A DNA stretch of 64,000 nt, from positions 214,717 to 278,716 of the forward strand of contig CALWVM010000001.1 in NCBI GenBank assembly GCA_944384985.1. The letters are read 5' to 3'. Both the position numbers and the translations under genes were made by a program. Numbering within the stretch: position 1 is the stretch's first letter; every line of letters begins with the position of its first letter. Below the pieces are notes generated by a model. It was not told the origin of the DNA. It made no database searches and saw only the letters and a list, made by a program, of their open reading frames with translations. Positions 14,352 to 49,466 of the stretch are shown piece by piece. The DNA is from an uncultured Clostridia bacterium (GTDB lineage: Bacteria > Bacillota > Clostridia > Oscillospirales > Acutalibacteraceae).

Positions 14352-14362
14352 GTTCATTTTCT

Positions 14363-15007: not shown

Positions 15008-15049
15008 AAAGTCCTCGTCTGCAGGTTTGCCGTTTCGCGCGGCTTTTCG

Positions 15050-15619: not shown

Positions 15620-15634
15620 AAAATCCTCCCGCGG

Positions 15635-35274: not shown

Positions 35275-36459
35275 ATGTTCAGGAACCGGGATGTAAAGCC
35301 GCGGAAAAAAAGCTATTATCCGTTTTCCAAAAACTATCCGAGCCGGCGCACAGGCACGACCTACGCCATCGGCGAAAGCCGCGCGCGCCGCGAAAAGGAA
35401 CGCCGCAACGCCGTCGTGTATGCGGTGGTGCTCGTGGTGGTGTTTTTGGTGGTTTTTGCGGCGGCGTTCGTCGGCATCTCGCTGTATGAGCGTCCCATTG
35501 ACGACGGCAGCGACACGGTGGTCAGTGCGGACGGCGGGCTGCGCGCGCTGTATATCACCGAAGATGAGCTCGGCGGCGGCATTGCTTTCGACCTGTTCCG
35601 CAGCACGCTTGAACAGGCGCAGGCGAACGCGGTGCTTTTGGATTTCAAAAACGAAGCGGGCAGGCTTTGTACCGACACGGGTACGGACACAGCCGGGGAG
35701 ATCGGCGCGTCCGCGGATTCCGCAGCCGCGAAGGATACCGTCGAACAGCTCAAAGCACAGGGCTACACGATCGTGGCGCGGGTGTACTGCTTCCGGGACC
35801 CCCTTGCGGCATCCCTGCTGCCCGGGACGGCGGTGACGGAGGCGGACGGCGTGACCGTCTGGCTGGATGCCAGCGCCCGCAATGGCGGGGAGCCGTGGCT
35901 CAACCCGTATTCCGAGACGGCGCAGCGCTATCTGCTCGATGTCATCGGAAACGCAGTGGAATTCGGCGCGGATGCCGTTCTGCTGGACGGCGTGCAGTTC
36001 CCGACGGGGGAGCTTGCCGCGCGCGCAACTTTTCCGGGCGAAGCGGAAAGCACTTACAGCCGCAACGCCATCCTGCAAAGCTTCATCGAACGTGCAAAAA
36101 CGCAGGTGGGCGACACCCCCCTGATGGTCGCCATGCCGCTTTCGGCGGTGGTCGCAGGGGATACGGCGGCGTACGGCGGCGGGATCTTCGACTCCGCGGC
36201 GGACACGGCGGCGGTCCTGCTCGACCGCACGGGGCTTTCCGACGGTACGATGCTCGGCGGCACTGCGTATTCTTCCGACATGGACGAGGCGGCGTTTGTA
36301 TCGGCTGCGACGGCGGCGCTTGAGGAGCGGCTTGCCCAAAACTACCGTACAGAGAATGTTCTGCCCATTCTTTCGGATACGGCGGATGTATCAAACCTTG
36401 CGAACGCGGGTATAGATAGTTATATAGCCTTGCGCACGGCGGATACTGCGGCGCAATAA
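35275..36459 (+). CDS. DUF4015 putative glycoside hydrolase, membrane anchored
   Basis: The 394-aa protein has a basic N-terminus, one membrane helix (AVVYAVVLVVVFLVVFAAAFVG, residues about 45-66) and an extracytoplasmic TIM-barrel-like domain. ALYITEDELGG, NAVLLDFKNEAGRL, GYTIVARVYCFRDPLAA, EPWLNPYSETAQRYLLDVI and GADAVLLDGVQFP follow the DUF4015 (putative glycosyl hydrolase) pattern. Its position 13 bp after the Rnf-like trio suggests cotranscription, but a functional link is unproven. Confidence 0.8.
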   Translation: MFRNRDVKPRKKSYYPFSKNYPSRRTGTTYAIGESRARREKERRNAVVYAVVLVVVFLVVFAAAFVGISLYERPIDDGSDTVVSADGGLRALYITEDELGGGIAFDLFRSTLEQAQANAVLLDFKNEAGRLCTDTGTDTAGEIGASADSAAAKDTVEQLKAQGYTIVARVYCFRDPLAASLLPGTAVTEADGVTVWLDASARNGGEPWLNPYSETAQRYLLDVIGNAVEFGADAVLLDGVQFPTGELAARATFPGEAESTYSRNAILQSFIERAKTQVGDTPLMVAMPLSAVVAGDTAAYGGGIFDSAADTAAVLLDRTGLSDGTMLGGTAYSSDMDEAAFVSAATAALEERLAQNYRTENVLPILSDTADVSNLANAGIDSYIALRTADTAAQ

Positions 36460-36534
36460 AGGGTCCGCCTTCAAAACAAAAACCTTTCCGGACATAGGCC
36501 TGCGCCCGTCATACGGTGCGCGGCTAAAAAATAC

Positions 36535-36563
36535 TTGACAAGTGTTGATTTTTGTGGTACTCT
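36535..36563 (+). promoter_or_regulatory. Promoter of the riboswitch-controlled ATPase
   Basis: TTGACA (36535) and TACTCT (36558) with a 17-bp spacer, immediately before the riboswitch. Confidence 0.82.
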
Positions 36564-36583
36564 GGAACCAGAGAAAAGCCCTT

Positions 36584-36735
36584 GGAAGGGGAGTAGCTTT
36601 CAGGCGAGCGGGTTTATCCCCCTTACTTGAACCCGCCGGTCAACATCTTGCCGTACACTCGGCTGGCCGACGAGCCTGCTTTTTCAGGTAGCAAGACCTT
36701 CGGCAGCGTCCGCGTTTGCCAGAAGGTCTTTTTTC
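36584..36735 (+). promoter_or_regulatory. yybP-ykoY manganese riboswitch with terminator platform
   Basis: The conserved core GAAGGGGAGTAGC (36585 on) and its partner AGCAAGACCTTC (36690-36701) frame a four-way junction with CCGGTCAACAT and GGCTGGCCGACGAGCC, the yybP-ykoY class. AAGACCTTC also pairs with GAAGGTCTT (36722-36730), which is followed by a T run, making an intrinsic terminator. Aptamer P1 and the terminator are therefore exclusive, so Mn2+ binding should turn the downstream ATPase on. Confidence 0.93.
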
Positions 36736-36761
36736 ACCTATTTTTTCAGGAGGCGAACAGT

Positions 36762-39431
36762 ATGCAGTACTATTTGCAGTCCCCACAGGATGTCTTCCGC
36801 GAAGTGGGCAGCTCCGAAACGGGGCTTTCGCAAAGCGAAGCGGAAAAACGTCTTGCCGAAAACGGTAAAAACAAGCTGCAGGAAGGGAAAAAGAAATCCC
36901 TCATCCGCCGGCTCTTCGAACAGTTTGCTGACCCGATGATCATCATCCTCATCGCGGCGGCGATTGTTTCGGGTATCACGGCGGCGATGGAAAAAGAATT
37001 TCCCACGGACGTCATCATCATCCTCGCGGTGGTTATTATCAACGCGGTGTTGGGCGTCTATCAGGAAAGCAAAGCGGAAAAGGCGATCGAAGCGCTCCAG
37101 CAAATGGCGGCGGCGACCTCCAAAGTCCTGCGCGACGGCGAGGTCAAGCAGGTCCCGAGCGCGGACCTGGTCGTCGGCGATGTGATTTTACTCGAAGCGG
37201 GCGACGCCGTCCCCGCGGACGCGCGCATATTCGAGAGCGCAAGCCTCAAAATCGAGGAGGCGGCGCTGACGGGCGAGTCCGTGCCCGTTAACAAAGCCAT
37301 CAACGCCCTCGGGCTCGGGGAAGAAAAAGACGTGCCGCTCGGCGACCGCAAAAACATGATGTATATGGGATCCTCGGTCGTGTACGGGCGCGGGCGCGCG
37401 GTCGTGACCGCCACCGGCATGAATACCGAAATGGGCAAGATCGCCGGCGCGCTTTCCGCGGCGCAGGAATCCCGCACGCCCTTGCAGCAAAAGCTCGCGC
37501 AGCTTTCCAAGATCTTAAGCTACATTGTCCTGGGCATCTGCGTGTTCATGTTTGTGTTCGACATCATCCGCCGTTATACGACGGGAGAGCCGCTGGACTT
37601 CGACTTCCTGCTGCACTCGTTCATGATCGCCGTATCACTGGCGGTCGCCGCTATCCCCGAAGGCCTTGCCGCCGTGGTGACGGTGGTGCTTTCCATCGGC
37701 GTGACGAATATGTCGAAAAAGAACGCCATCATCCGCAAGCTGACCGCTGTGGAAACGCTCGGCTGCGCGCAGATCATCTGCTCGGATAAGACCGGCACGC
37801 TCACGCAGAACAAAATGACCGTGGTTGAGCACTACGCCGACAATGAAAAACTGCTTGCCGAAGGGATGGCGCTGTGCACAGACGTCAATGTGGACCACGA
37901 CGGCAACCTGGTGGGCGAGCCCACCGAAGCCGCGCTGGTGGCGTATGCGATGAAGCTGGGGCTTAACAAAAACGACCTGCTGAAAAGCGCGCCGCGCGTG
38001 GGCGAAGCGCCGTTTGACTCCTCGCGCAAAATGATGTCCACCATTCACAAGACTTCCGACGGCGTTTTGCAGTTTACCAAAGGTGCGCCCGACGTGGTGC
38101 TGGGGCGCTGCACCCATATTTTCAAAAACGGTGCGGCAGTCCCCATGACCGATGCTGACCGCGAGGCGATCCTCCGGACGAACAAGGCGTATGCCGACCG
38201 TGCGCTGCGCGTACTGGCGGCCGCGTTCCGCACGTATTCGGATGTCCCCGAGGACCAGAGCGCGGAAGCGCTGGAGCACGACCTGATCTTTATCGGGCTT
38301 ACGGGAATGATCGACCCCGTGCGCCCCGAGGTCAAAGCGGCGATCGAAGAATGCCGCAGTGCAGGCATCCGCCCGATTATGATCACCGGCGACCACAAGG
38401 ATACCGCAGTCGCGATTGCAAAAGAGCTGGGCATCATAAAGGATGCGTCCGAAGCCATTACGGGCGCCGAGCTCAACGAACTTTCCGACGAAGAATTCAA
38501 AGACAAGGTCACGCAGTATTCGGTCTATGCGCGCGTGCAGCCTGAGCACAAGGTGCGCATCGTCAACGCCTGGCGCGCCCGCGGCATGGTGACCGCCATG
38601 ACCGGCGACGGTGTGAACGACGCGCCCTCCATCAAGAGCGCCGACATCGGCGTGGGCATGGGCATTACGGGCACGGACGTGACGAAGAACGTCGCGGACA
38701 TGGTGCTTGCCGACGACAACTTTGCGACGATCGTTTCCGCCGTGGGCGAAGGCCGCCGCATTTACGACAACATCCGCAAATCCATCCAGTTCCTGCTCGC
38801 GTCGAACTTAAGCGAGGTTTTGGCGATCTTCTTCGCGAACCTGATGGGCTTCACCATCCTCGAACCCGTCCACCTTCTGTGGATCAACCTCGTCACCGAC
38901 ACTTTCCCGGCGCTGGCGCTGAGTATGGAGAAGGGCGAAAGGAATATTATGAAGCGTCCGCCGCGCAAGACCACAGACGGTATTTTTGCCGGCGGTGTGG
39001 GCGGCGACATCGCCTACCAGGGGCTGCTCATTGCGCTGCTGACCATCGTGGCGTATCTCGTCGGTCACTTTGTCGAAGCGGGCAGATGGGAGATCGTCAA
39101 CAGCCCGGACGGCATGACGATGGCGTTCCTCACCATGTCGCTGTGCGAGATTTTCCACTCGCTGAACATGCGCTCGCAGCGCGGTTCGATCTTTGCGATG
39201 GCGGCGCGCGGCAGCCACAACAAGTATCTGGCGCTTTCGACGATTGCTTCGCTCATCACGACAACCGCCGTGATCTATATCCCGGGCTTGAGCGATGCGT
39301 TCGGGTTTGAACACATCAATCTGATGGAATATGCCATCGCCATTGCGCTCGCGTTCGCGATCGTCCCGCTTGTGGAGCTCATCAAAGCGTGTGAGCGCGC
39401 CGCGGGAAAACGGAAAAAGAAAAAAGCGTAA
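36762..39431 (+). CDS. P2-type cation-transporting ATPase, probably Mn2+/Ca2+ export
   Basis: The 889-aa P-type ATPase has TGES (actuator), PEGL in M4, the phosphorylation loop SDKTGTLTQNKM with Asp near residue 341, KGAPD, TGDH and GDGVNDAPS, then NLVTDTFPALALSMEKGE in M6. The overall pattern is SERCA/PMR1-like. Control by an Mn2+ riboswitch indicates a role in removing excess manganese, though Ca2+ transport is also possible. AGGAGG precedes ATG 36762. Confidence 0.95.
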   Translation: MQYYLQSPQDVFREVGSSETGLSQSEAEKRLAENGKNKLQEGKKKSLIRRLFEQFADPMIIILIAAAIVSGITAAMEKEFPTDVIIILAVVIINAVLGVYQESKAEKAIEALQQMAAATSKVLRDGEVKQVPSADLVVGDVILLEAGDAVPADARIFESASLKIEEAALTGESVPVNKAINALGLGEEKDVPLGDRKNMMYMGSSVVYGRGRAVVTATGMNTEMGKIAGALSAAQESRTPLQQKLAQLSKILSYIVLGICVFMFVFDIIRRYTTGEPLDFDFLLHSFMIAVSLAVAAIPEGLAAVVTVVLSIGVTNMSKKNAIIRKLTAVETLGCAQIICSDKTGTLTQNKMTVVEHYADNEKLLAEGMALCTDVNVDHDGNLVGEPTEAALVAYAMKLGLNKNDLLKSAPRVGEAPFDSSRKMMSTIHKTSDGVLQFTKGAPDVVLGRCTHIFKNGAAVPMTDADREAILRTNKAYADRALRVLAAAFRTYSDVPEDQSAEALEHDLIFIGLTGMIDPVRPEVKAAIEECRSAGIRPIMITGDHKDTAVAIAKELGIIKDASEAITGAELNELSDEEFKDKVTQYSVYARVQPEHKVRIVNAWRARGMVTAMTGDGVNDAPSIKSADIGVGMGITGTDVTKNVADMVLADDNFATIVSAVGEGRRIYDNIRKSIQFLLASNLSEVLAIFFANLMGFTILEPVHLLWINLVTDTFPALALSMEKGERNIMKRPPRKTTDGIFAGGVGGDIAYQGLLIALLTIVAYLVGHFVEAGRWEIVNSPDGMTMAFLTMSLCEIFHSLNMRSQRGSIFAMAARGSHNKYLALSTIASLITTTAVIYIPGLSDAFGFEHINLMEYAIAIALAFAIVPLVELIKACERAAGKRKKKKA

Positions 39432-39464
39432 TGCCGCGCAGAAGCGGCACATAAGCCATGCGAA

Positions 39465-39510
39465 ACGCCCTGCCGGGTTCCGGTTGGAACCCGGCAGGGC
39501 GTTTGCTTTT
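39465..39510 (+). terminator. Strong terminator after the ATPase
   Basis: ACGCCCTGCCGGGTTCC and its exact complement form a 17-bp stem with loop GGTT, followed by TTGCTTTT. Confidence 0.93.
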
Positions 39511-39567
39511 GGAAAGCGGAACAATCCCAGAACGATCTTTGTTTTTTGAAAAATCCATAAAAATAGA

Positions 39568-39596
39568 TTGAAAAACAAAGAAAAAATTGCTATACT
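39568..39596 (+). promoter_or_regulatory. Promoter of the CooC/dehydratase cluster
   Basis: TTGAAA (39568) and TATACT (39591), 17-bp spacer, about 40 bp before the CooC-like gene. Confidence 0.78.
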
Positions 39597-39637
39597 GTTA
39601 TTTAGTTAATTTTTTAACAAGAGGAAGCGTATCTGCT

Positions 39638-40402
39638 ATGAAAGAGAATGCAAAAATCATCGCGGTTGCGGGCAAAGGCGGCGTGGGCAAAACGTCCGTT
39701 TCCGCAACCATCGTAAAACTGCTTACGGAAAAGTATCCGGACAAAAAAATTCTGGCGATCGACGCCGACCCTGCCGTCGGCCTTTCCACGGCGCTGGGGA
39801 TCAATGTGCAGACGACGATCGACGATATCCGCAAGGAGATCGTCTCCACGGTCGAGGATGGGGATACAAAAGCGGCGATCGAACTGCTCGGCGACGCGCG
39901 GTATAAGATTTTCGATGCGCTGGTCGAAACCGACGGTTTTGCGTTTATCGCCGTCGGCCGTCCCGAAAGCGCGGGCTGCTACTGCAAGATCAATTCGTAC
40001 TTAAAAGAAGTCATCAGCCTGCTTTCCGAGGAATTCGACTACGTCGTGATCGACGGCGAGGCCGGCATCGAGCAGATCAACCGCCGCGTCATGGAAAAGG
40101 TGACCCACCTGCTCTTAGTCAGCGACGCGAGCAAAAAGGGGACGCACGTCATCGAGACCATCAAAAGTGTGGCGGATGAGCTGGTCATGTATGAAAAGAT
40201 CGGCGCGATCCTGAACCGGCTGCCGAGCGAGGATGTGATCCCATACATCGACACCGGCGACATCCCGGTGCTTGCCTACATCCTTTCGGATCCCAACCTT
40301 GCCGTCTATGACATCGAAGGGAAAAATATCATGCAGCTTCCGGATGATTCCAACATCGTAAAAGGTGTTGCCGAGGCGCTTCGGAAAATGGAAATCATTT
40401 AA
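39638..40402 (+). CDS. CooC-like nickel-insertion-type ATPase
   Basis: The 254-aa MinD/ParA-type ATPase has a deviant Walker A GKGGVGKT (residues about 12-19), DADPAVGLSTALG and YVVIDGEAGIEQ. A C-x-C pair (Cys114 and Cys116 in GCYCKINSYLK) is the metal-binding feature of CooC, which matures Ni-Fe-S clusters of CO dehydrogenase/acetyl-CoA synthase. AGAGGAAG precedes ATG 39638. No CO dehydrogenase catalytic subunit is in the window; the neighbours are dehydratase-type and ACS-like genes, so the client is probably one of them. Confidence 0.85.
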   Translation: MKENAKIIAVAGKGGVGKTSVSATIVKLLTEKYPDKKILAIDADPAVGLSTALGINVQTTIDDIRKEIVSTVEDGDTKAAIELLGDARYKIFDALVETDGFAFIAVGRPESAGCYCKINSYLKEVISLLSEEFDYVVIDGEAGIEQINRRVMEKVTHLLLVSDASKKGTHVIETIKSVADELVMYEKIGAILNRLPSEDVIPYIDTGDIPVLAYILSDPNLAVYDIEGKNIMQLPDDSNIVKGVAEALRKMEII

Positions 40403-40543
40403 GCTGCCGAGCATCGAACCCGATATGCCGAAAACGCGCCGGCACGGCGGTCTTTCCCTTTTTCGCCCGAGGCCGCGGCAGCCTGCCTGCGTGCTCAAAA
40501 CGAAAATCCCATCCCTGCCGACATCGTTTTCGGTGTGCAGCAG

Positions 40544-40646
40544 TTTTCAGCGAGAGGATTTTTGTGCGGGCAAGGCACAAAAGCGCCGGAATACTGACGT
40601 ATTTCAAGCTTTTTAACGCAGCCCGCGCCTAAAGTACCGCTGAAAA
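40544..40646. repeat. 103-bp sequence with TTTTCAGCG inverted ends
   Basis: TTTTCAGCG (40544-40552) and CGCTGAAAA (40638-40646) bound a block lacking genes in the gap upstream of the dehydratase genes. It looks like a small non-autonomous element. A TTTTCAGCGTAGTGG also occurs at about 52663 inside the second 146-bp element. Confidence 0.45.
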
Positions 40647-40700
40647 CCATATTGTGTTCGATTCCCGGCAGCTTAGCCTTACCGGTTTTAAGGAGGTTCT

Positions 40701-41912
40701 ATGAAAGATTTAAAACATCTTTACGAGTTTGAAAACCTGCTGCAGGAAGCCAACAACGCGCTTGTGCAAGAGGCAAAAGCACAGGGGAAGCTTGCGCTCG
40801 GCTACACCTGCTACCATGTCCCGGAGGTGCTGCTCAACTGCCCCGGCTGCTTTTCCGTGCGGCTGCGCGCCCCGCGGACGGGGTCTTTGGACATTGCGAC
40901 CTATTATATGAGCAATTTCCTGTGCGGCTACTCGAAAGCACTTTTAGAACGGGCGATTGAGGGCGGCTACAACTTTCTGGATGCGCTTCTCGGCTCGGAG
41001 ACCTGCTCCGAGATGAACCGCGCCTTAGAGCATTTTGAGCTGCTGCACCTTGTGGACAATCCGAACTTTTTCGTAAGCTTCATGGACGTCCCCTTTAAGA
41101 TCGAGCCCCACACCGTCAAGCACTATGTCAAGCAGGCGAAGGATAAGATCATCCATCCGCTTTCGGAAAAATACAACGTGGATTTTTCGGACGAGGCGCT
41201 TTTGAAAGCCGTCGCCGAGCACAACGAGGTCTGCCGCCTGATGACGGAGATCGGCAGCTACCGCAAAGAGGAGAACCCGCGCATCACAGGCTATGAATAC
41301 CACGTTTTGAACCTGATTACATACTGCTGCCCGAAGTCTCTCATTTTGGATAAGCTGCGCGAGACCGCCGAGGAGTTAAAAACGCGCGAGCCCGACGAAA
41401 AGAAGAACTACCGCGCGAAGATCGTGGTGGTCGGCTCGGAAATGGATGATCCCGAGTTTACAAAGCTGATCGAAGAAAGCGGTGCGCTGGTTGTGGCGGA
41501 CCGGTTCTGCTTCGGCTCTATCCCGGGCAGGGAGGAGATCCATATCGACCCGAACGAGGACATCCTCACGCAGATCTGTAAGCATTACATGGTCACAAGC
41601 CAGTGCCCGCGGTATATGAGCCACGAAAAGGTGCAGGAACGCCGCGATACCGTAAGGCGGCTTGTAAAGGAATATCACGCCGACGGCGTTTTGTACGAGC
41701 AGATCAAATTCTGTGAGTATTGGGGCTACGAGCGCGCGCTCGCATCGCACATTATGAACGACGAATACGGCGTGCCGTCCGCGTCCGTGGACCGGCAGTA
41801 TACGGCTTCCTCCTCCGGGCAGCTTCGGACGCGCGTGCAGGCATTTGTGGAAAGCCTTGAGATCAAAAAGATCGCAAAGGCGAGGGAGGCGAACGTCCAT
41901 GCTCAAGGATAA
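40701..41912 (+). CDS. 2-hydroxyacyl-CoA dehydratase-family subunit (HgdB/BcrC-like), smaller subunit
   Basis: The 403-aa protein of the HgdB/BadD/BcrC fold contains GYTCYHVPEVLLNCPGCFSVRL near the start, then LLGSETCSEMNRA, YCCPKS, VADRFCFGS, VTSQCPRYMS and LYEQIKFCEYWGYER, giving cysteines spaced as in this family's Fe-S cluster ligands. Family members use an activase and ATP to make a strongly reducing cluster for dehydration or reduction. AAGGAGG precedes ATG 40701. The substrate is unknown. Confidence 0.88.
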   Translation: MKDLKHLYEFENLLQEANNALVQEAKAQGKLALGYTCYHVPEVLLNCPGCFSVRLRAPRTGSLDIATYYMSNFLCGYSKALLERAIEGGYNFLDALLGSETCSEMNRALEHFELLHLVDNPNFFVSFMDVPFKIEPHTVKHYVKQAKDKIIHPLSEKYNVDFSDEALLKAVAEHNEVCRLMTEIGSYRKEENPRITGYEYHVLNLITYCCPKSLILDKLRETAEELKTREPDEKKNYRAKIVVVGSEMDDPEFTKLIEESGALVVADRFCFGSIPGREEIHIDPNEDILTQICKHYMVTSQCPRYMSHEKVQERRDTVRRLVKEYHADGVLYEQIKFCEYWGYERALASHIMNDEYGVPSASVDRQYTASSSGQLRTRVQAFVESLEIKKIAKAREANVHAQG

Positions 41913-43515
41913 GCTAAAAAAACTGAAAAACATCAAAATCGAGCCGGATAAAATCAAAGCGTATGCCGTCGATATGTTCGGGAAACCTGCGGGCTTAGGC
42001 GACCTGTACCGCGAGCACACTGCCCTTTTGAAGCACCGCGAGTGGCGCGGCGCGGGCGACACCTTATATGATTACTACCGTTGGCTTGTCAACTGGAAAG
42101 ACATGATCGCTATGGTCGGCAAAGCCCCCGTGTCGTGTGTGAAGGGCTTAATGCGGTACCGCTGGTTTGCCTCCTATCTTTCCGCACCCGCCTTTGTGGA
42201 CCGCCATGTGATGGGGCTTCGCGGGCCGCAGCTGAGAATGGCGCATCTGCACTACAACATGATCGTCAAGCACACCACGAAGCTCATCGGCATTTCGATG
42301 CGTGCGGACGAGCGGTTCCACCCGGGCAATAAATTGTCCAAAAAAATCGTGCTGATGGATGAGATCGTCCCGAACGAAGTCTTTACGGGCTTCCCGAACC
42401 TGATCCCCATCCCGCTGCAGACGCTGCCGATCTTTTTGGCGTCCATGGTTGACCAGCAGATCACGCCGCCGTATCTCGAGGTCACGGAAAGCTACGGCGT
42501 CCCGGCGGACGTCTGCCCGCTGCCGAGCGGGGAGGCCGGCGTTGCCATTGAAGACGATTACCCGAAGATCGGCTGCTGCATGATCTCCACTAATATGCCC
42601 TGCGACGGCTCCATTATGAACACCTCTTTCCTCGACCGGCGCTTGCAGCTGCCGTCGCACGTTTTCGGCGTGCCGCTGCGCTACAATGACGAGGACGTGC
42701 AGGAATACGGCGTGGAGGAGATCAAGTCTTTGATCGCCTATGTGGAAGAGCAGACCGGCGAAAAATTCGACTGGGACGCTTTCTTCTCCAAAATGCGCGA
42801 TTATAACGAGCAGCTGGATTACGAGCTCCAGAAATGGGACGTGAACAAGACCGATTACCCGCAGATGACCGGCGCGTGCTTCTGGCTGTACCGTATTTTC
42901 TATTTCAATCTGTCGGGCGGCTCGAACAAGCGCTTCTTGAAGGTGGACAAAAAGGTCAACAAGATCATGATGCAGGCGTATGAAAAGAAAACGCCCGTCT
43001 CCAAAGTGATGCGCCACCGCGCCGTCGTGTGGTCCTGCCCGGCGAACTATTATACGAGCTTTGCCAACTGGCTGGAAAACTGCTGGGGCATCAACGTTGT
43101 GATGGATATGGAAACGATGATTTCCTATTTGGAGATCAGCGCGGACGACAAAGAGCAGGCGCTGCGCGACTTAGCCCGGACCTATCAGCGCTCCATCATG
43201 CGCAAGCACACCAAAGGCGGCTACCGCAATGTTGTGGATGAGCTCTGGCGCATCGTCGAGGAATACCATGTCGATACGGTCATCATGTACGACCAGATCT
43301 CCTGCAAGGGCATGGACGGCTTGAACGGCATTTTCGACGATCAGGCGCGCGAGCGCAATGTCCACTTCATCTGGGTCAAGCAGGACCTGATGGACCCGCG
43401 GACGATCTCGCGGCGCGATATGCGCGACCAGGTGAACAAATACATGCAGACTGTTTTGCAGGAAGAGCCCGTCGACCCCACACTGCTGGATTTCGAAGAC
43501 GATCTTGCCTGGTAA
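41899..43515 (+). CDS. 2-hydroxyacyl-CoA dehydratase-family subunit, larger subunit
   Basis: The 538-aa protein belongs to the same superfamily. It contains VCPLPSGEAGVAIEDDYPKIGCCMISTNMPCDGS, a long middle, VVWSCPANYYTSFANWLE and a late TVIMYDQISCKGMDGLN, which is the cluster-domain finish. GGGAGG precedes ATG 41899, which overlaps the smaller-subunit gene by 14 nt. The two subunits are unequal and clearly different, unlike the single-gene double-cubane-cluster reductases, so a heterodimer is expected. Confidence 0.86.
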   Translation: MLKDKLKKLKNIKIEPDKIKAYAVDMFGKPAGLGDLYREHTALLKHREWRGAGDTLYDYYRWLVNWKDMIAMVGKAPVSCVKGLMRYRWFASYLSAPAFVDRHVMGLRGPQLRMAHLHYNMIVKHTTKLIGISMRADERFHPGNKLSKKIVLMDEIVPNEVFTGFPNLIPIPLQTLPIFLASMVDQQITPPYLEVTESYGVPADVCPLPSGEAGVAIEDDYPKIGCCMISTNMPCDGSIMNTSFLDRRLQLPSHVFGVPLRYNDEDVQEYGVEEIKSLIAYVEEQTGEKFDWDAFFSKMRDYNEQLDYELQKWDVNKTDYPQMTGACFWLYRIFYFNLSGGSNKRFLKVDKKVNKIMMQAYEKKTPVSKVMRHRAVVWSCPANYYTSFANWLENCWGINVVMDMETMISYLEISADDKEQALRDLARTYQRSIMRKHTKGGYRNVVDELWRIVEEYHVDTVIMYDQISCKGMDGLNGIFDDQARERNVHFIWVKQDLMDPRTISRRDMRDQVNKYMQTVLQEEPVDPTLLDFEDDLAW

Positions 43516-43558
43516 TTGCAGAAACAATCCATTGGATAGAAAGGGTATGTGAATCCAT

Positions 43559-44359
43559 ATGAAATATTTCGGCGGCTGTGATGTAGGCTCTACCTACACA
43601 AAATGCGTTATTTTAGACGAGAACGGGAAAATGGTCGCGGCGGTCACGAACCGCAGCAAGATCAATCCCGTCCAGTCTGCACAGATCGCGCTGGACGATG
43701 CGATCGCGCAGGTCGACGACCTGCACAGCGCAAAGGATCTTTCTTATCTCATCGGCACGGGCTACGGCCGCAACAAGGTCCCGTTTGCCGAGGAAAACAT
43801 CTCTGAGATCAGCTGCCACGCCATGGGCGTGCATGTGACCAACCCCGAGGTCAAGGCTATCATCGACATCGGCGGGCAGGACGTCAAGGGCATTTCCATT
43901 GACACGGACGGCACGGTCAAAAACTTTGCCATGAACGACAAATGCGCCGCGGGCACGGGCAGGTTTTATGAGGCGATGGCAAATGCGTTTGAAATGAGCC
44001 TCCCGGAATTCTCCAAGCTCTCGCTGAGCGCAAAGAACACGATCCCCATCACGGCGCAGTGCACCGTGTTCGCCGAAAGCGAGGTCATCTCCCTCGTCGG
44101 CGAGGGCAAGCCGATGGATGAGATCGCCGCAGGCATTCAGCTTGCGGTCGCAAAACGCTGCTTCGTCATGGCGAAAAAGGCCGGCGCGACGGACAGCATC
44201 ACCTTAACGGGCGGGTGCGCGAAAAACGAAGGACTCAAACAGGCGATCGAAAAGGTGCTCAAAATCAAGGTGGTCGAGCTCTCGACCGACCCGCAGCTGA
44301 TGGGGGCGCTCGGCGCCGCCGAATACGCAAGGCAAAAAGGCATGGCGAAAGCCGGTTGA
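43559..44359 (+). CDS. 2-hydroxyacyl-CoA dehydratase activase (HgdC-like)
   Basis: The 266-aa ASKHA-fold ATPase has GCDVGSTYTKCVI (phosphate 1), IDIGGQDVKGI, and NDKCAAGTGRF and TAQCTVFAESEV, the two cysteines that let an HgdC homodimer share one [4Fe-4S] cluster, then TGGCAKNEGL. It is the ATP-driven electron injector for HgdAB-type enzymes, which fits its place 43 bp after the two subunits. The reductant (ferredoxin or flavodoxin) is not encoded here. Confidence 0.94.
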   Translation: MKYFGGCDVGSTYTKCVILDENGKMVAAVTNRSKINPVQSAQIALDDAIAQVDDLHSAKDLSYLIGTGYGRNKVPFAEENISEISCHAMGVHVTNPEVKAIIDIGGQDVKGISIDTDGTVKNFAMNDKCAAGTGRFYEAMANAFEMSLPEFSKLSLSAKNTIPITAQCTVFAESEVISLVGEGKPMDEIAAGIQLAVAKRCFVMAKKAGATDSITLTGGCAKNEGLKQAIEKVLKIKVVELSTDPQLMGALGAAEYARQKGMAKAG

Positions 44360-44373
44360 GGGGAAGGGCGAGT

Positions 44374-44532
44374 ATGATAAAAGCGATTGCAAAGATCCTG
44401 ACCGCTTTGGCAGCATTTTTTGGGCTCACGTTCACGATCTATTGGTTCAATCTGGACATGAAGCTCGTGCGTAAAATCTATGATGCGCTGCAAAAGCACT
44501 ATGACAATCTGAAGAGAGACAAACGGTTATAA
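44374..44532 (+). CDS. 52-aa micro membrane protein in the dehydratase cluster
   Basis: ATG 44374 follows GAGGGGAAGGG, and TAA overlaps the next ATG by one base. A hydrophobic N-terminal segment (IAKILTALAAFFGLTFTIYWF) is followed by a basic amphipathic helix, MKLVRKIYDALQKHYDNLKRDKRL. Tight spacing and native codon use support a real gene. It could tether the soluble enzymes to the membrane. No family is recognised. Confidence 0.7.
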   Translation: MIKAIAKILTALAAFFGLTFTIYWFNLDMKLVRKIYDALQKHYDNLKRDKRL

Positions 44533-45224
44533 TGGATTTCTATAATGATTTGATCCGCGATACGTCAGCCCTGCTGCAAGGGACTAAGAGCTGCGCGTAT
44601 CCGTATACGCCGGGGAAGGCGTGGCCGGACGCGGGCCGCAACGAGGTGATCCTGCAGCGCGACACCGCCTTTGAATTAAACGGCGTCGGCTTCAACCTCA
44701 TCACGTCCGAACCGGTCGAAAGCGGCATCGCTGTTTACGGCGACGAGCTCGGCAGTATCCGCCAAAGCCGGCATTTTGCGCGCGTCTGCCTGATCGGGAT
44801 GCGCGACGACGCCGGGGACGAGCAAAAGACGTATGACCGGATCCGGAAAGTCGAATTTGTAAAATACCACTGCTTCCCGAAAGGCTATATGATCCGTACC
44901 GCTTCGCGCAGCCATAAAGAGGTTGTCCGCGTGAGCAAAAGCGCCGTGCAGGGCGGCATCAGCTTCGAAAAGGTGGGCAACCTGCTTCTATCCGCTTATT
45001 TGGAAAAACCGGCGGTGGAGGGCATCAAGATCCTTTTCCTGACCGACCCGCAGCTCGACTACGCGAAGCTGGAAAAAATCGCGGCAAAGACCCACGCGGT
45101 CACCGAAACGCTCAACCACATTATGAACAGCGTCAACTTCGATTGCAGCACCTGCAACCTGAAGCCGATCTGCGATGAGGTCGAGGGAATGCGCGAGCTG
45201 CATTTCAAACGCGCGGGGATGTAA
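44532..45224 (+). CDS. CO dehydrogenase/acetyl-CoA synthase-like protein
   Basis: The 230-aa soluble protein contains GTKSCAYPYTPGKAWPDAGRNE near the start, KVEFVKYHCFPKGYMIRTASRSHKE in the middle, and a C-terminal SVNFDCSTCNLKPICDEVEGMRELHF with a C-x2-C-x5-C set. I associate this pattern with short proteins annotated as CODH/ACS beta-subunit-like; the Cys-Gly-Cys of an A-cluster is not seen. Together with the CooC-like ATPase it links the operon to Ni-Fe-S chemistry. The assignment is from memory of family patterns, so moderate. Confidence 0.6.
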   Translation: MDFYNDLIRDTSALLQGTKSCAYPYTPGKAWPDAGRNEVILQRDTAFELNGVGFNLITSEPVESGIAVYGDELGSIRQSRHFARVCLIGMRDDAGDEQKTYDRIRKVEFVKYHCFPKGYMIRTASRSHKEVVRVSKSAVQGGISFEKVGNLLLSAYLEKPAVEGIKILFLTDPQLDYAKLEKIAAKTHAVTETLNHIMNSVNFDCSTCNLKPICDEVEGMRELHFKRAGM

Positions 45225-45249
45225 AGTCTGTGGGCAAAAAACAAGGGAA

Positions 45250-45283
45250 AAGGGCAGTAAGCCACAATCGGCTTGCTGCCCTT
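45250..45283 (+). terminator. Hairpin after the dehydratase cluster
   Basis: AAGGGCAG-T-AAGCC pairs with GGCTT-G-CTGCCCTT around ACAATC. The T tract is weak (TTAGAGTG), but the position fits a terminator. Confidence 0.55.
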
Positions 45284-45308
45284 AGAGTGTGTCAAAAAAG
45301 GGACTTTG

Positions 45309-45354
45309 CTCCCCTTGTCAGGGGAGCTGTCGAGCGAAGCGAGACTAAGGGGTA
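45309..45354. repeat. CTCCCCTTGTCAGGGGAG repeat
   Basis: Stem CTCCCCTTGTCAGGGGAG followed by CTGTCGAGCGAAGCGAGACT and AAGGGG; a common style of gut-Clostridia intergenic repeat. It is followed by the related repeat at 45381-45436. Confidence 0.5.
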
Positions 45355-45380
45355 GTCGGAAACCTTGATATTTCACTGAT

Positions 45381-45436
45381 TCTCTCCCTCCGTCACGCGC
45401 AAAGCGCGTGCCACCTCCCTCGTCAGAGGGAGAAAA
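45381..45436. repeat. CTCCCTCC/ACCTCCCTC repeat, copy 2
   Basis: TCTCTCCCTCC, a variable hairpin (CACGCGCAAAGCGCGTG), CCACCTCCCTC and AGAGGGAGAAAA; ends are shared with 27796-27858. A further hairpin, GAGAGCG-CAAGC/GCTTG-CGCTCT, lies at 45456-45489. Confidence 0.5.
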
Positions 45437-45507
45437 AAGACTTAATTGACAGTCTGAGAGCGACAAGCCAAAATCAGCTTGCCGCTCTACGTTTATTTAC
45501 CTGCGCA

Positions 45508-45708
45508 TCATGCGATCTTCTGCATCCACGCGTCGTATTTTTTGAACACTTTTTCGAGGATCTTGGCGCTGTCGGCGCTGACGAACAGCACCTTCACGCC
45601 GCTGTGTTCCCGCCGAACGCGAGCGCGCACCCGCTCGAAAATGCGTGCGCTCGGGCGGTAGGTATCCACTGCCGTTTTCAGCAGTGCGTCTGTGTCATGC
45701 AGATTCAT
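45508..45708 (-). CDS. 66-aa protein downstream of an ECF sigma factor
   Basis: A small soluble, basic protein (MNLHDTDALLKTAVDTYRPSARIFERVRARVRRE...). It overlaps the sigma factor's end by 14 nt, so it is translationally coupled. It lacks a membrane helix and so is not a standard membrane anti-sigma; a soluble sigma modulator is only a possibility. Confidence 0.6.
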   Translation of the reverse strand: MNLHDTDALLKTAVDTYRPSARIFERVRARVRREHSGVKVLFVSADSAKILEKVFKKYDAWMQKIA

Positions 45709-46201
45709 TCGTCTTTGCCTCCCGTTCCAAATTTTCTGAAAATAGGCCTTTTGCCTTTTGCAGCCGCGTGCGCACAGCGGACGCCGTCACACCGAGCAGT
45801 TCGCCGATCTCTTCACTTTTGAAGCCGAAGCTTTTTAAGGTCAGCAGCTCGGCGCAGTCCGCAGGCAGCGCCGCAAATGCGCGCTGCACGGCAAGCCGCG
45901 TTATGTCGTCGGGCGCACTGGCCGGGTCGGGCTGCGCCTCATCGAGCGGCTGCGTCTCGCGCGAAGCGTAGGCGCGCCGCAAAAAGTCATTTTTGAGGTT
46001 CACGGCACAGCGGAACACCCACGCGCGCCAGTTGTCGGGGACCCTTTCGCTGTCAACGGCGCGCCACACACGCAGAAAGATTTCCTGCGTGAGGTCCTCC
46101 GCCTCCTGCGCACCGAAGCAGACGTTAAAATAGGCGAACACATCCGAAAACAGCGCCCCATAAACCGCGTCAAACGCTTCGTTTTTCTCCTGCGCGTTCA
46201 T
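45695..46201 (-). CDS. ECF-type RNA polymerase sigma factor
   Basis: The 168-aa protein has region 2 with EAEDLTQEIFLRVWRAV and WRAWVFRCAVNLKNDFLRR, a linker, and region 4 with LPADCAELLTLKSFGFKSEEIGELLGVTASAVRTRLQKAKG, a helix-turn-helix for -35 recognition. It is a SigW/RpoE-like extracytoplasmic-function sigma without a visible anti-sigma partner. It is coupled by ATGA to the 290-aa gene upstream and overlaps the 66-aa gene downstream. Confidence 0.92.
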   Translation of the reverse strand: MNAQEKNEAFDAVYGALFSDVFAYFNVCFGAQEAEDLTQEIFLRVWRAVDSERVPDNWRAWVFRCAVNLKNDFLRRAYASRETQPLDEAQPDPASAPDDITRLAVQRAFAALPADCAELLTLKSFGFKSEEIGELLGVTASAVRTRLQKAKGLFSENLEREAKTNESA

Positions 46202-47070
46202 CGTCTCCGAATCTTTGCGACGTCATGCGCCAAGAGCTGCACCACGTCAAAGGTGTCTTTCGTCGCGCGGATCTGCGCAACATCTACAATCAGACAGACC
46301 TTTTCGAGCAGCAGCTCGGCGGTCACGTCCTTTTCGATATAGAGCTTTACAATGTCCATCAGCACGAGCCTGCCCGGGACGTTTTCCAAAAGAGTCTTGG
46401 TCAAATGGAATTCATGCAGATCCTTTTTGAAAAGAACGTCCGTGTCTATATTGGCATATGTGACTTCTTTGGCGCTTAAAGAAAGCGCGCTTTTTTGTAC
46501 GCTCGGGTGCGCGACGACCAGATCCGCCGTCACTTCGCCGTGCGCCTCAGCGGGGACAGCCATTACAAAGACGAGACTGCCGTAATAACGGTTTTTGCCG
46601 TCGCCGAGGAACCGCTCGGCGGGCAGGATCGCGCCGTCCGGCAAAAGCTCCACCGCCGAAAGATCAACGGCGTCCACCTTACCGTTGACACACAGGAATT
46701 TAAGCTGTCCGCTGTTCTGGTTGCGCTGGTCGCAAACCACTTTCCCGTTGACGATCAGCGAGACCTGTTTGTTCTCCGAAAGCGGCATAATGATCGCCGT
46801 ACCGTTGATGACGCAGATGCTGTTGTTTGGCAGGTTATTGTTGCTTAAGACAGTTTTGCCGTTGAAGGTGAGCGTTTCGATATCTGCGTCCGCGTAGACA
46901 GTGGACGCGACGTTTTTCATATCGATTTTCGCGAACGCCGCGCGGGTTTGTTCGTCACAGCCTTTCGGCAGGATCACCAGCGCCGCGTTGTGCACCGCCT
47001 CGACAGACGACGCGGCTTCCGGCGTGTTGTAGCTGCGCAGGTCGCAGACCGCCACATTTTGAAATTTCAT
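46198..47070 (-). CDS. Conserved hypothetical protein in the ECF sigma operon
   Basis: The 290-aa protein starts MKFQNVAVCDLRSYNTPEAASSVEAVHNAALVILP. The middle consists of short beta strands with many Asn/Gly turns (LSNNNLPNNSICVINGTAIIMP, VSLIVNGKVV, FLCVNGKVDAV), suggesting a beta-helix or repeated-strand fold like bactofilins. The C-terminal third is helical/beta, with DTDVLFKKDLHEF. AAAGGGA precedes ATG 47070. First gene of the sigma operon, so it may act as sensor, regulator or target. Family not recognised. Confidence 0.7.
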   Translation of the reverse strand: MKFQNVAVCDLRSYNTPEAASSVEAVHNAALVILPKGCDEQTRAAFAKIDMKNVASTVYADADIETLTFNGKTVLSNNNLPNNSICVINGTAIIMPLSENKQVSLIVNGKVVCDQRNQNSGQLKFLCVNGKVDAVDLSAVELLPDGAILPAERFLGDGKNRYYGSLVFVMAVPAEAHGEVTADLVVAHPSVQKSALSLSAKEVTYANIDTDVLFKKDLHEFHLTKTLLENVPGRLVLMDIVKLYIEKDVTAELLLEKVCLIVDVAQIRATKDTFDVVQLLAHDVAKIRRR

Positions 47071-47142
47071 CTCAATTCCCTTTCCATGTGTTTCTGTAAA
47101 GTAAGACGCACCGTGCACGCACTTTGTCCGTTTTAGACGATG

Positions 47143-47297
47143 GATATTAGATGTTAGATGTGCGGGGGGGGGGAGGAAGTGACCGAAAAAACCGAACCGG
47201 GAAATTGCCCGCCCCTACCTGGTTTGCACTAACTTTCGGCTTCGCAGAAAACCCGCCCATTCCACATCTAATATCTAACGTCTAACATCTAAAATCT
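47143..47297. repeat. Inverted TTAGATGT tracts flanking a G10 run
   Basis: TATTAGATGTTAGATGTG at the left and, in inverse, CACATCTAATATCTAACG plus TCTAACATCTAAAATCTA at the right bound about 110 bp that include ten consecutive G (47164-47173). The same inverted arrangement bounds 52506-53000. Confidence 0.6.
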
Positions 47298-47778
47298 ATT
47301 TATGGTATTTCCCGCCGTTCTGAATTTGGAACGCACGGTAAATCTGCTCTAAGAGCATCACGCGCGCAAGACGGTGCGGAAAAGTCATTTTCGACATGGA
47401 AAGGCGAAAATCCGCCCGCCGTTTGACTTCGTCGGAAAGCCCAAAAGAGCTGCCGAGCACAAAAACAAGCTCGCTTTTTCCCTCCAAAGCGAGCGCAGAT
47501 ATTTTTTGACTAAGCGCTTCGCTTGAAAGCATTTTGCCCTCAATGCAAAGCGCTAACACATAGGCATTTTTCGGAATCTTCGCCAGGATCTGTGCGCCCT
47601 CGCGTTCGAGCGCTTTTTGGATCTGCGCCTCTGAGGGATTTTCGGGCAGCGGTTCGGGGGAAAGCTCGACCAAATGCAGCCGGCAGAATGCCGAAAGCCG
47701 CTTTTCATATTCCGCGCAGAAGTCGCGCACATACTTTTCCCGGCATTTGCCGGGCGACAGGATCGTTATCGTGAACAC
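47296..47778 (-). CDS. rlmH: 23S rRNA (pseudouridine1915-N3)-methyltransferase
   Basis: The 160-aa SPOUT enzyme methylates pseudouridine 1915 in helix 69. FCAEYEKRLSAFCRLHLVEL, the glycine-rich FVLGSSFGLSDEV knot motif and MTFPHRLARVMLLEQIYRAFQI with the typical ending GGKYHK are present. The start is GTG 47778, which overlaps the upstream metallo-hydrolase gene by 13 nt; coupling of rlmH to this hydrolase is common in Firmicutes. Confidence 0.97.
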   Translation of the reverse strand: MFTITILSPGKCREKYVRDFCAEYEKRLSAFCRLHLVELSPEPLPENPSEAQIQKALEREGAQILAKIPKNAYVLALCIEGKMLSSEALSQKISALALEGKSELVFVLGSSFGLSDEVKRRADFRLSMSKMTFPHRLARVMLLEQIYRAFQIQNGGKYHK

Positions 47779-48569
47779 AGCCGCACCGCTTTCTCTGCCC
47801 AGACAGGGCTTGCGACCGTCAGGGTAATGTCATCGCCGCAGACGGCGCCCGCCGCCTCCAGGGCATCCGCCGTCACACGGTATGCCAGTTCGGGCAGGTT
47901 GTTTTGCTCGCTTAAATGGCCTAAAAACAGGTGCTGCGTGCCGCTTTCCGCCAAAAGGCAGGCTGTTTCGGCGCACACCTCGTTGCATAGGTGCCCGTGC
48001 GTGCCGAGGATGCGCTTTTTGAGCGGATAAGGGTACTGCGGATTGCTTTGCAGCATTCGCACGTCGTGGTTGGATTCCAGCAGCACAGTCTCGCAGCCGC
48101 GGATCGCCGAAAGCACGGTGTCGGTCATTTCGCCGAGGTCGGTGGCAATCGCCACGCGCGAGCCATCCTCCGCCGTGAGCACATAACCGCAGCTCTCACG
48201 GCTGTCGTGCGGGGTGCGGAAATTTTGGACGAACAGCGCGCCGCAGTCCGTGCCCGCCTCGCTCAAGACGAACGCGTCGAACCGACCGTCCAAAATGCGC
48301 ATATCGTCGAGCGCCTCCAGCGTGCCGGCGGTTGCGTAGACGGGTGTGTGGTATTTTGCTGCAAATACGCGAAGCCCGCTGACGTGGTCCGAGTGCTCAT
48401 GCGTGACGAACACCGCGCGGATGCTGTCGGGCGCAACGCTGATGTTGTGCAGCGCCGCCTCCGTCTGGCGGCAGGAGCGCCCAACATCCACGAGCACGCC
48501 GCCGCCTTCGGCGCCGATGTAAATCGAATTCCCTTTGCTGGAAGAAAACAGGGGACAAAACGTAGTCAT
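47766..48569 (-). CDS. MBL-fold metallo-hydrolase (YycJ/WalJ-like)
   Basis: The 267-aa protein begins FCPLFSSSKGNSIYIG, with the metallo-beta-lactamase motif VTHEHSDHVSGL, ATDLGEMTD, SNHDVRML and a late GHLSEQNN. It resembles YycJ/WalJ, linked to cell-wall signalling and DNA repair in Gram-positives. It is coupled to rlmH downstream and follows the GDPD gene by 3 nt. Confidence 0.93.
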   Translation of the reverse strand: MTTFCPLFSSSKGNSIYIGAEGGGVLVDVGRSCRQTEAALHNISVAPDSIRAVFVTHEHSDHVSGLRVFAAKYHTPVYATAGTLEALDDMRILDGRFDAFVLSEAGTDCGALFVQNFRTPHDSRESCGYVLTAEDGSRVAIATDLGEMTDTVLSAIRGCETVLLESNHDVRMLQSNPQYPYPLKKRILGTHGHLCNEVCAETACLLAESGTQHLFLGHLSEQNNLPELAYRVTADALEAAGAVCGDDITLTVASPVWAEKAVRLCSR

Positions 48570-48572
48570 AAA

Positions 48573-49466
48573 TTATCTATTCTCCGAGGCCGTGACTTTT
48601 TCCCGCGCTGCCGATGTAGGCAAAATGGAATTGGTGGTGACGTAGTGCACGCCCGCGTCCATCATCTTTTCCAAAAGCTCTTTGGAGTCTACCGTCCAGC
48701 AGGCGGCGGTAAGGCCGGCGTCATGGATCTGCTTGATCGCCTCGGGGCGCGGGGCGTTGTACTGCGCACAAAACGCCACGCCGGCGTGGATCTCTTTCGC
48801 GGCGTCGATCGTTTTGCCGGTGATGTACTCTACGAGATACCACATTTCAAGGTCCTGGTCGATCTCGCGAAGCTTACGCAGCACCGAGATGTGGAACGAA
48901 ATGATGATGCAGCTTTTCAGGATGCCGTTCTGCGCGAGCAGGTCATAAAGCGACTGCATCTTCTCGATGCGGCGGTCCTTGACCTCGATCATCGGGCGGC
49001 AGCCGTAGGTCTTGCAGATGTCGATGTACTCCTGCAAGGTGCAGATGTGGGCGTTCGGGTAGTTTTCAATGTTCGCGCCGTTGACCATCTTCTTTTCGAG
49101 CATTTCGGGGTAGGAATAGCTTTTCACATCCCCCTTGCCGTCGAACATGGTCTTGATCTGCCCGTCATGCAGCACCACCCACACGCCGTCCGTCGTGCAG
49201 TGCGTGTCACATTCGATTGCGTAAAAGCCCGCTTTTCCCGCCGCGGTGAACGCCTCGGCGGTGTTCTCGGGAAAGACGGCGGAAAGCCCGCGGTGCGCGG
49301 TCAAATGCAATTCTCGCGTATCGTCGGGGCGCAGCTCGTCAAACGCCTTTAGGGGCTTGGGCTTGATCTTCTGGTAGCGCATATGACGGTAGATCACACC
49401 GCCCAGCGCGCTGGAGGCGACGGCCGCCATCCCGGCCATTGCAAGCTTTGTCCATACCGAACTCAT
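48573..49466 (-). CDS. Membrane-anchored glycerophosphodiester phosphodiesterase
   Basis: The 297-aa protein has one N-terminal membrane segment (LAMAGMAAVASSALGGVIY). The GDPD domain has LTAHRGLSAVFPENTAEAF, IECDTHCTTDGVWVVLHD, MIEVKD and a late CWTVDSKELLEKMMDAGVHYVTTN. It releases glycerol-3-phosphate from phosphodiesters, either lipid- or teichoic-acid-derived. GGGAGG precedes ATG 49466. Confidence 0.94.
   Translation of the reverse strand: MSSVWTKLAMAGMAAVASSALGGVIYRHMRYQKIKPKPLKAFDELRPDDTRELHLTAHRGLSAVFPENTAEAFTAAGKAGFYAIECDTHCTTDGVWVVLHDGQIKTMFDGKGDVKSYSYPEMLEKKMVNGANIENYPNAHICTLQEYIDICKTYGCRPMIEVKDRRIEKMQSLYDLLAQNGILKSCIIISFHISVLRKLREIDQDLEMWYLVEYITGKTIDAAKEIHAGVAFCAQYNAPRPEAIKQIHDAGLTAACWTVDSKELLEKMMDAGVHYVTTNSILPTSAAREKVTASENR

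Follow-up and report, generated by a model that had tools for sequence, protein, structure and literature searches.

A conserved six-gene cluster of Clostridia joining a probable HgdB-type reductase pair to CooC-like and acetyl-CoA synthase-like proteins

INTRODUCTION

Benzoyl-CoA reductases (BCR), double-cubane cluster proteins (DCCP) and 2-hydroxyacyl-CoA dehydratases (HAD) make up a superfamily of ATP-driven Fe-S enzymes. Here we analyse a locus that encodes two proteins of this superfamily (HgdB1 and HgdB2), an HgdC-type activase, a 52-aa microprotein with one hydrophobic helix (TM), a CooC-like ATPase and a 230-aa protein resembling acetyl-CoA synthase (ACS). The locus lies in a 64,000-nt stretch, hereafter the window, of contig CALWVM010000001.1 (positions 214,717 to 278,716, assembly GCA_944384985.1) of an uncultured Clostridia bacterium. 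It is a real, conserved variant of the known reductase superfamily, to which a bold, testable hypothesis on metals can be attached.

Among the closest described systems, class I BCR BzdNO/MbdON (8s02, 9g87) is likewise a heterodimer of an [8Fe-9S] subunit and a three-Cys [4Fe-4S] subunit. According to the available text of PMC11971306, the [8Fe-9S] ligands of BzdN are Cys36/73/100/263/293/327, the [4Fe-4S]-OH2 ligands of BzdO are Cys95/128/380, DCCP forms homodimers in which both chains carry a double cubane, and hydroxyacyl-CoA dehydratases have lost the double cubane. In comparison with BzdNO/MbdON, the locus has one activase rather than two, a longer HgdB2 and no counterpart of BzdO His131, and it adds the microprotein, CooC and ACS-like partners. 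With DCCP and DCCP-R (6eno, 7yyl) it shares the six-Cys set and the single activase, and a C-D-G of HgdB2 aligns with DCCP; with the 2-hydroxyisocaproyl-CoA dehydratase system HadBC/HadI (3o3m, 4eht) it shares the superfamily, the activase and the three-Cys cluster, but HgdB1 keeps the double-cubane ligands. The CooC-like protein shares the deviant Walker A and C-Y-C-x2-N motifs with the nickel-insertion ATPase CooC1 (3kje). The 230-aa protein has the middle-domain fold of ACS/CdhC and a C-x2-C at the position of the A-cluster, but is truncated, with three motif cysteines in place of the full A-cluster pattern.

RESULTS

The six genes and the HgdB pair

All six genes reported by a first-pass annotation of the window were found again when 39638-45224 was re-read, and they were assigned to families by Pfam, NCBIfam and structure searches:

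39638..40402, + strand: CooC-like MinD/NifH-type ATPase with GKGGVGKT and C-Y-C (C114, C116); CooC1 3kje, 2e-15
40701..41912, + strand: HgdB1, 403 aa, predicted [8Fe-9S] double-cubane subunit; HGD-D, 1.3e-96
41899..43515, + strand: HgdB2, 538 aa, predicted active-site [4Fe-4S] subunit with a longer N-terminal region; HGD-D, 1.6e-44
43559..44359, + strand: HgdC-type ATP-dependent activase, 266 aa; BcrAD_BadFG 4.6e-57, TIGR00241 210.8 bits
44374..44532, + strand: 52-aa microprotein (TM), one hydrophobic helix and an FNLD-type motif behind it; set of 43 sequences
44532..45224, + strand: ACS/CdhC-like protein, 230 aa, predicted ACS middle domain with the end DC205-x2-C208-x5-C214; profile, hhalign and Foldseek

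Six cysteines of HgdB1 (C37, C75, C102, C270, C302 and C338), each invariant among the 30 or 31 sequences covering its position, align one to one with the [8Fe-9S] ligands of BzdN, the closest solved structure (8s02, 1.1e-25). Three cysteines of HgdB2, C206 (36/36), C235 (36/36) and C469 (37/37), could be aligned with DCCP, MbdO and BzdO, the stretch around the third Cys of BzdO being not significant when taken alone. The AF2 model of HgdB2 (pLDDT 81.9, pTM 0.85) had BzdO, the best fold match, DCCP and HadB as its top Foldseek matches, and all 20 matches at E ≤ 1e-3 belonged to the HgdB/benzoyl-CoA-reductase superfamily.

The first-pass annotation had proposed a reductase or dehydratase. Since the pair has the complete [8Fe-9S] ligand set, which hydroxyacyl-CoA dehydratases have lost, it looks like a reductase; this alignment-based comparison favours the former half of the proposal. 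Membership in the 2-hydroxyacyl-CoA dehydratases as defined was rejected, as HgdB1 keeps all six double-cubane ligands. Membership in DCCP as defined was also rejected, as there are two genes here and they scored 150.6 and 49.7 bits with NF040772 (cut-off 350). The CCSH of BzdO is replaced in HgdB2 by CDGS (C235-D-G-S), with a register uncertain by one residue; under either register the acid/base His131 of BzdO has no His counterpart. HadB carries Ala at this position, so the missing His does not separate a reductase from a dehydratase. Beyond the three-Cys set of HgdB2, C395 is kept in 36/37 sequences and C227 in 31/36. No further HGD-D gene was found in the genome of the window (97.67% complete).

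HgdC scored well above the TIGR00241 cut-off of 125.4 bits, and its closest solved structure is MbdQ (2.8e-62). We take its C129 and C168, by analogy with HgdC, to be the cluster ligands. There is one activase gene per operon in the window and in the 24 close loci with full gene order described below, and two in the distant loci. The 52-aa protein had no Pfam family above the cut-off; in 43/43 helix proteins (the window and additional gene sets included) the hydropathy maximum over 19 residues was at least 1.87, and the FNLD-type motif behind the helix is conserved.

The CooC-like ATPase and the ACS-like protein

The CooC-like protein matched generic P-loop families only in Pfam, and none of the NCBIfam matches listed (25 of 37) was above the cut-off. 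Among solved structures CooC1 is the closest to it, and the C-Y-C motifs align. Both defining features of CooC, the deviant Walker A and a C-x-C of metal-binding type, were found, the C-x-C in 29/29 sequences (window included).

The 230-aa protein had been called CODH/ACS-like (CODH, carbon monoxide dehydrogenase). From one sequence the call is weak, as the Pfam CdhC match (3.1e-4, 21.1 bits) falls below the cut-off of 24; it becomes firm because profile, hhalign and Foldseek results agree. The profile search reached ACS at 6.1e-6 across the ACS middle domain, and hhalign against 28 ACS sequences gave a probability of 98.0% (E 1e-12, 218 columns), placing C205-x2-C208 on the C-x2-C of the A-cluster. 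In Foldseek searches with the structural model (pLDDT 86.1, pTM 0.80, low confidence at 201-209) all 22 matches at E ≤ 1e-3 were ACS/CdhC chains. A distant member, in locus L104, scored 53.9 bits with PF03598, above the same cut-off. From these alignments and the model we assign the protein with firm confidence to the middle domain of ACS, with C-x2-C-x5-C at the predicted A-cluster position.

This motif occurs in all 47 members (41/41 close, window included, and 6/6 distant). The ACS pattern C-x2-C-x8-C-x9-C was present in 28/28 ACS, 27 of which also have a C-G-C after it, vs 0/41 close members; a complete ACS was therefore rejected as an identity for the 230-aa protein, which stops no more than 23 residues beyond its motif. 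The C-G-C of ACS holds the distal nickel. With a median gap of −1 nt in 36 loci, the ACS-like gene overlaps that of the microprotein.

Gene order in relatives

The close set comprises 40 relatives, 28 with at least 4.8 kb on the upstream side and 12 with less. In 24 of the 28, the order CooC-HgdB1-HgdB2-HgdC-TM-ACS-like is kept on the same strand, so the genes do stay together in relatives, the check that the first-pass annotation had named. Four relatives depart from it: L042 and L045 have CooC-HgdC-ACS-like, with TM and HgdB2 (in L045 also HgdB1) on the other strand, L048 has CooC-HgdC-TM-ACS-like, and L037 has TM and ACS-like only. Among the short-upstream loci, L041 is like L045, L047 begins with the ACS-like gene followed by HgdB1-HgdB2-TM, and the remaining ten contain whatever part of the standard order fits.

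In L041, L042, L045 and L048 the genes for CooC, HgdC and the ACS-like protein are grouped without an intervening HgdB pair. Conversely, additional HgdB1-HgdB2-TM sets occur in L013, L038 (plus an HgdC) and L046, and the 14-17 kb retrieved for L103, L106 and L107 contain such sets without any CooC, HgdC or ACS-like gene, while the genomes of these three loci carry the full operon elsewhere. Because helper trios occur with no HgdB pair among them and HgdB1-HgdB2-helix sets stand alone, we read the operon as two modules, one catalytic (HgdB1 and HgdB2, usually with TM) and one servicing (CooC, HgdC and the ACS-like protein).

Clustering of flanking frames (40 clusters listed) gave mostly shadow frames of operon genes, along with a His-rich protein, an FMN oxidoreductase and the methyltransferase-like frames of L031-L034. 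An NADH:flavin oxidoreductase frame starts no more than about 20 nt behind the operon in L013 (10104-12176), L049 (9722-11782) and L044 (1177-3477); Pfam checks were made for L013 and L049. The downstream flank in L031-L034 has frames that resemble, by eye, homocysteine methyltransferase and uroporphyrinogen decarboxylase.

Distribution

The ACS-like protein has a rare and patchy occurrence: 3/245 genomes of the order and 5/291 of the class (own genome included in both). The HgdB2 profile at E ≤ 1e-20 found 5/245 class genomes (G000, G251, G423, G440, G460), the same five that were positive for the ACS-like query; this reverse search took in 245 class genomes, perhaps not identical with the sample of 291. 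Given these five genomes and the conserved order in 24/28 loci, chance co-location was rejected. In genome G460 the third HgdB2 copy (C19 187184-188788) was matched across one in-frame TAG.

In the phylum sample, ACS-like profile matches were seen in 54/398 genomes. Apart from G000 and one match in G680 (119.5 bits), they scored at most 38.3 bits and sit in frames of 712-814 aa, except in four rows where the frames have 396-416 aa; 28/28 translated matches carry the ACS cysteine pattern. The short ACS-like protein was found in 6/97 genomes of the class of G680. A wider genome scan yielded 34 loci, mostly from metagenome-assembled genomes (MAGs) of Clostridia and Oscillospiraceae, many of them from the guts of ruminants, as well as one Solobacterium and one Acholeplasmatales MAG. 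Since the tree of the 47 ACS-like proteins does not follow family, it fits horizontal transfer, a reading of the tree that falls short of proof.

Carrier genomes and hints of metal

No CODH was found in 6/8 carrier genomes examined, including that of the window. The latter has a single CooC-like match at E ≤ 1e-6, a single ACS-like match and no match to a [NiFe]-hydrogenase large subunit. CooC therefore seems to need another client; service to a CODH elsewhere in the genome of the window was rejected, given that none was found at 97.67% completeness. Formyltetrahydrofolate synthetase, a common gene, is present in 8/8 carriers, the window's genome included. CdhD, of the corrinoid Fe-S protein family, was above the cut-off only in G423, G680 and G460 (28.9 bits), with a sub-threshold match in the genome of the window.

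A protein of about 75 aa with a His-rich N-terminus is encoded in ten loci (L031-L034, L038, L041, L042, L045, L047, L048); its gene comes right after the ACS-like gene in nine of them, and in L038 it is divergent from the second HgdB set. The four tested had no Pfam family above the cut-off. Locus L038 also encodes (12469-12840) a metal-sensing repressor of the CsoR/RcnR family with a His-rich tail (Trns_repr_metal, 4.2e-26), located behind the second HgdC and next to the extra HgdB1-HgdB2-TM-HgdC set. By eye, a frame in L046 that is rich in His and contains masked letters looks similar to this repressor.

CoA enzymes near the operon

No CoA-enzyme family was detected by Pfam (E ≤ 1e-5) among the eight window neighbours (35275-49466, operon excluded): a glycosyl-hydrolase-like protein, a P-type cation ATPase, two proteins without Pfam family, a sigma factor, a SPOUT methyltransferase, a metallo-beta-lactamase-fold protein and a GDPD protein. 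Five queries (two acyl-CoA dehydrogenases, one CoA-transferase, one ligase, one thiolase) run against the window and the 40 close relatives gave one match, a ligase about 6.7 kb away in L039. No CoA-transferase or dehydrogenase was thus found by these queries in close loci; other transferase classes and 2-hydroxyacid dehydrogenases were not searched.

Distant loci differ. In all six, CooC with C-Y-C directly follows the ACS-like gene. The three with enough upstream DNA (L104, L147, L148) start with two acyl-CoA dehydrogenase genes, identified with Pfam in L104 and by similarity in the other two loci. After one or two unknown genes come HgdB1, HgdB2, HgdC, HgdC, ACS-like and CooC. Further along L148 lies another HgdB1-HgdB2-HgdC set, to which the window-type profiles give higher scores. 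In L109 (G423, 4838-15787) a CoA-transferase gene lies on one side of HgdB1-HgdB2-CooC, with two activases, a ligase and a thiolase on the other. The first-pass statement that no CoA-transferase or acyl-CoA dehydrogenase lies nearby thus agrees with the eight window neighbours and is not general: because of the dehydrogenases of L104, L147 and L148 and the CoA genes of L109, a lack of CoA chemistry cannot be generalised. A CoA-transferase/dehydrogenase set in close relatives had been named as a sign of a standard hydroxyacyl-CoA pathway; this sign was seen only in part, with CoA-enzyme genes beside three distant loci and around the HgdB pair of L109, and the one remote ligase in close loci. 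Since three distant relatives have acyl-CoA dehydrogenases upstream of a like cluster, the substrate could be a CoA ester, and the ancestor may have been a CoA-ester reductase.

Promoter and intergenic stretch in the window

Two further features were recorded upstream of HgdB1:

39568..39596, + strand: sigma-70-like promoter match TTGAAA-17-TATACT with extended TG; consensus scan
40400..40675, no strand: insertion-like 276-nt stretch with 28-nt imperfect inverted ends, in the gap between genes 1 and 2

The promoter claimed at 39568 is a consensus match only: region 37000-47500 contains 10 such sites vs 5.0 expected from shuffles. The spacing of genes 1 and 2 is 298 nt in the window, vs a median of 12 nt in 25 loci (window included). 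The 276-nt stretch in the gap (inverted ends 86% identical) looks like a small mobile insertion outside the conserved system; it has no second full copy in the window, and partial short matches were seen in L020 (49 nt, 88%) and L030. The claim of a single operon holds for gene order, while this gap leaves some doubt, in the genome of the window, whether gene 1 is transcribed jointly with the others.

DISCUSSION

The original observation is confirmed, and its earlier interpretation is partly supported. Our leading reading, put forward tentatively and somewhat short of even confidence, is that the operon encodes a low-potential, ATP-driven reductase of the BCR/DCCP/HAD superfamily together with its own set for maturation of a metal centre. 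Cluster ligands, folds, gene linkage and the lack of CODH matches in most carriers examined are supported by computation; electron flow is proposed by analogy with BzdNO and HgdC, and the membrane tether, the metal with its place, and the substrate are presumed. HgdC would hydrolyse ATP and drive electrons into the [8Fe-9S] cluster of HgdB1, which would store them and hand them to the three-cysteine cluster of HgdB2, where the substrate would be reduced. The 52-aa helix protein may anchor the pair at the membrane. CooC and the truncated ACS-like protein would act as assembly factors for a cluster in the HgdB pair, preparing it or loading it with metal; the likeliest form of this is insertion of nickel, or of some other second metal, at the open site of HgdB2. 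The more specific proposal, that CooC and an ACS-derived scaffold install a nickel or heterometal cluster in HgdB2 and so produce a membrane-bound, ATP-driven Ni-Fe-S reductase, is possible though doubtful. Of the first-pass proposals that lead here, CooC-type maturation is borne out as far as a CooC-type helper without CODH client in 6/8 carriers, with nickel still presumed, and the microprotein tether as far as a helix protein that accompanies the HgdB pair in most extra sets, with the tether itself still conjectural.

The strongest argument for a non-standard centre is an analogy: BzdNO produced in E. coli contained 10.9 Fe and its clusters (PMC11971306, available text), and the helpers here therefore presumably act beyond standard clusters. 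Two further points in favour of this reading are that CooC directly adjoins the ACS-like gene in 6/6 distant loci and that ten close loci encode the His-rich protein. In the accessible part of PMC6006190, high nickel rescues a cooC mutant, and some CODH operons use the His-rich nickel protein CooJ as an accessory; the available text of PMC10134865 offers a precedent in a proposed isoprene reductase operon that includes the nickel chaperones HypA/HypB.

A number of points weigh against this reading. The strongest is that nickel enters it by conjecture and that CooC differs in function between systems: in the text available of PMC6006190, Ni is not tightly bound by Rhodospirillum CooC, and a maturase is absent from some CODH operons. 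CooC might have the ACS-like protein itself as its client. Genomes G423 and G680 carry CODH, and G251, among the eight carriers, is 85% complete. The conservation count gave no clear further ligand set in HgdB2 beyond C395 and C227, and the operon of the window has no adjacent His-rich gene. Two of the six distant ACS-like proteins hold a C-G-C, upstream of the motif. CooC and an HgdB pair occur in L109 with no ACS-like gene nearby. As the ACS-like gene was the basis for choosing the loci, the synteny counts are conditional on its presence, and some loci are near copies (L022/L024, L035/L036, L041/L042), so the 28 loci are not 28 independent events. The ACS-like tree has long branches (L015, L049, L148, L014, L047, L011), and no starred clade holding at most half of its rows includes the window. 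The membrane location of the 52-aa protein is predicted solely from hydropathy. Its tie to the HgdB pair is not strict, because the standard order puts the helix gene between HgdC and the ACS-like gene, and two loci do not fit the TM part of the two-module scheme: L048 is CooC-HgdC-TM-ACS-like with no HgdB pair on its 15.6 kb, and L037 (~8700-9720) is reduced to TM and ACS-like, with CooC, HgdB1, HgdB2 and HgdC lost. The first codons of hgdB1 are readable by eye in L037, which is either a deletion or an assembly artefact.

Other explanations assign the helpers different roles. The ACS-like protein might be a working subunit, with a metal or Fe-S centre at C205/C208/C214 that is loaded by CooC and reductively activated by HgdB/HgdC; it could, for example, hold CoA or an acyl group. 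We regard this as unlikely, even though the motif is universal among members with its C-x2-C on that of the A-cluster, the gene overlaps that of the microprotein and CooC directly adjoins it in 6/6 distant loci. The protein ends shortly after the motif, without the full pattern and the subsequent C-G-C of nearly all ACS, the motif region of the model has low confidence, and L041, L042 and L045 group the gene with CooC and HgdC, apart from the HgdB pair. Similarly low is our estimate for an ordinary CoA-ester reductase or dehydratase with CooC and the ACS-like protein as lineage-specific accessories, for instance in Fe-S repair or CoA handling, and no new metal. The CoA-enzyme genes of L104, L147, L148 and L109 would suit such an enzyme, as would HgdB2 lacking His131 where HadB has Ala; the near-empty result of the five CoA-enzyme queries, the eight window neighbours and the single activase per operon speak against it. 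So does the fact that we know of no BCR, HAD or DCCP system with a CooC or ACS-like partner.

A membrane-lipid reductase akin to the anaerobic plasmalogen synthase PlsAR, itself a member of the superfamily, with the microprotein bringing the pair to the lipid, would be a still less probable analogue. HgdB1-HgdB2-helix sets do exist, and PlsAR makes vinyl-ether lipids with BCR/HAD-type domains (PMC10191378, available text), but inspection by eye of the 40 flank clusters listed turned up no lipid gene. To our knowledge PlsAR has no CooC or ACS-like partner either. The least probable explanation, for which we see very little room, is a substitute for CODH/ACS in seemingly acetogenic anaerobes without those genes, as in the case described in the available text of PMC7000372, where a Lachnospiraceae member without canonical CODH/ACS shows CO2-derived acetate and CODH activity. 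CooC and an ACS-derived domain do occur in six carriers without CODH matches, and formyltetrahydrofolate synthetase, albeit common, in all eight; the incomplete A-cluster pattern, the restriction of CdhD to three carriers, with only a sub-threshold match in the genome of the window, and the real CODH of G423 and G680 count against a substitute.

We found no published account of such an operon among the papers listed by our literature searches, whose coverage excluded most subscription journals, and a search combining cooC, 2-hydroxyacyl-CoA dehydratase and nickel returned nothing. Class I BzdNO acquires its clusters in E. coli with no helpers of its own (PMC11971306, in the text available). 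The conserved association of such a reductase with a CooC-type ATPase and a shortened ACS points to a route of maturation, and possibly to a metal, new for ATP-driven radical reductases within that literature, with an ACS-derived domain occurring in genomes without CODH matches. The six-gene cluster is found mostly in gut Clostridia; if the metal hypothesis is true, an Ni-Fe-S (or heterometal) cluster in the HgdB/benzoyl-CoA-reductase superfamily would be new chemistry in gut anaerobes.

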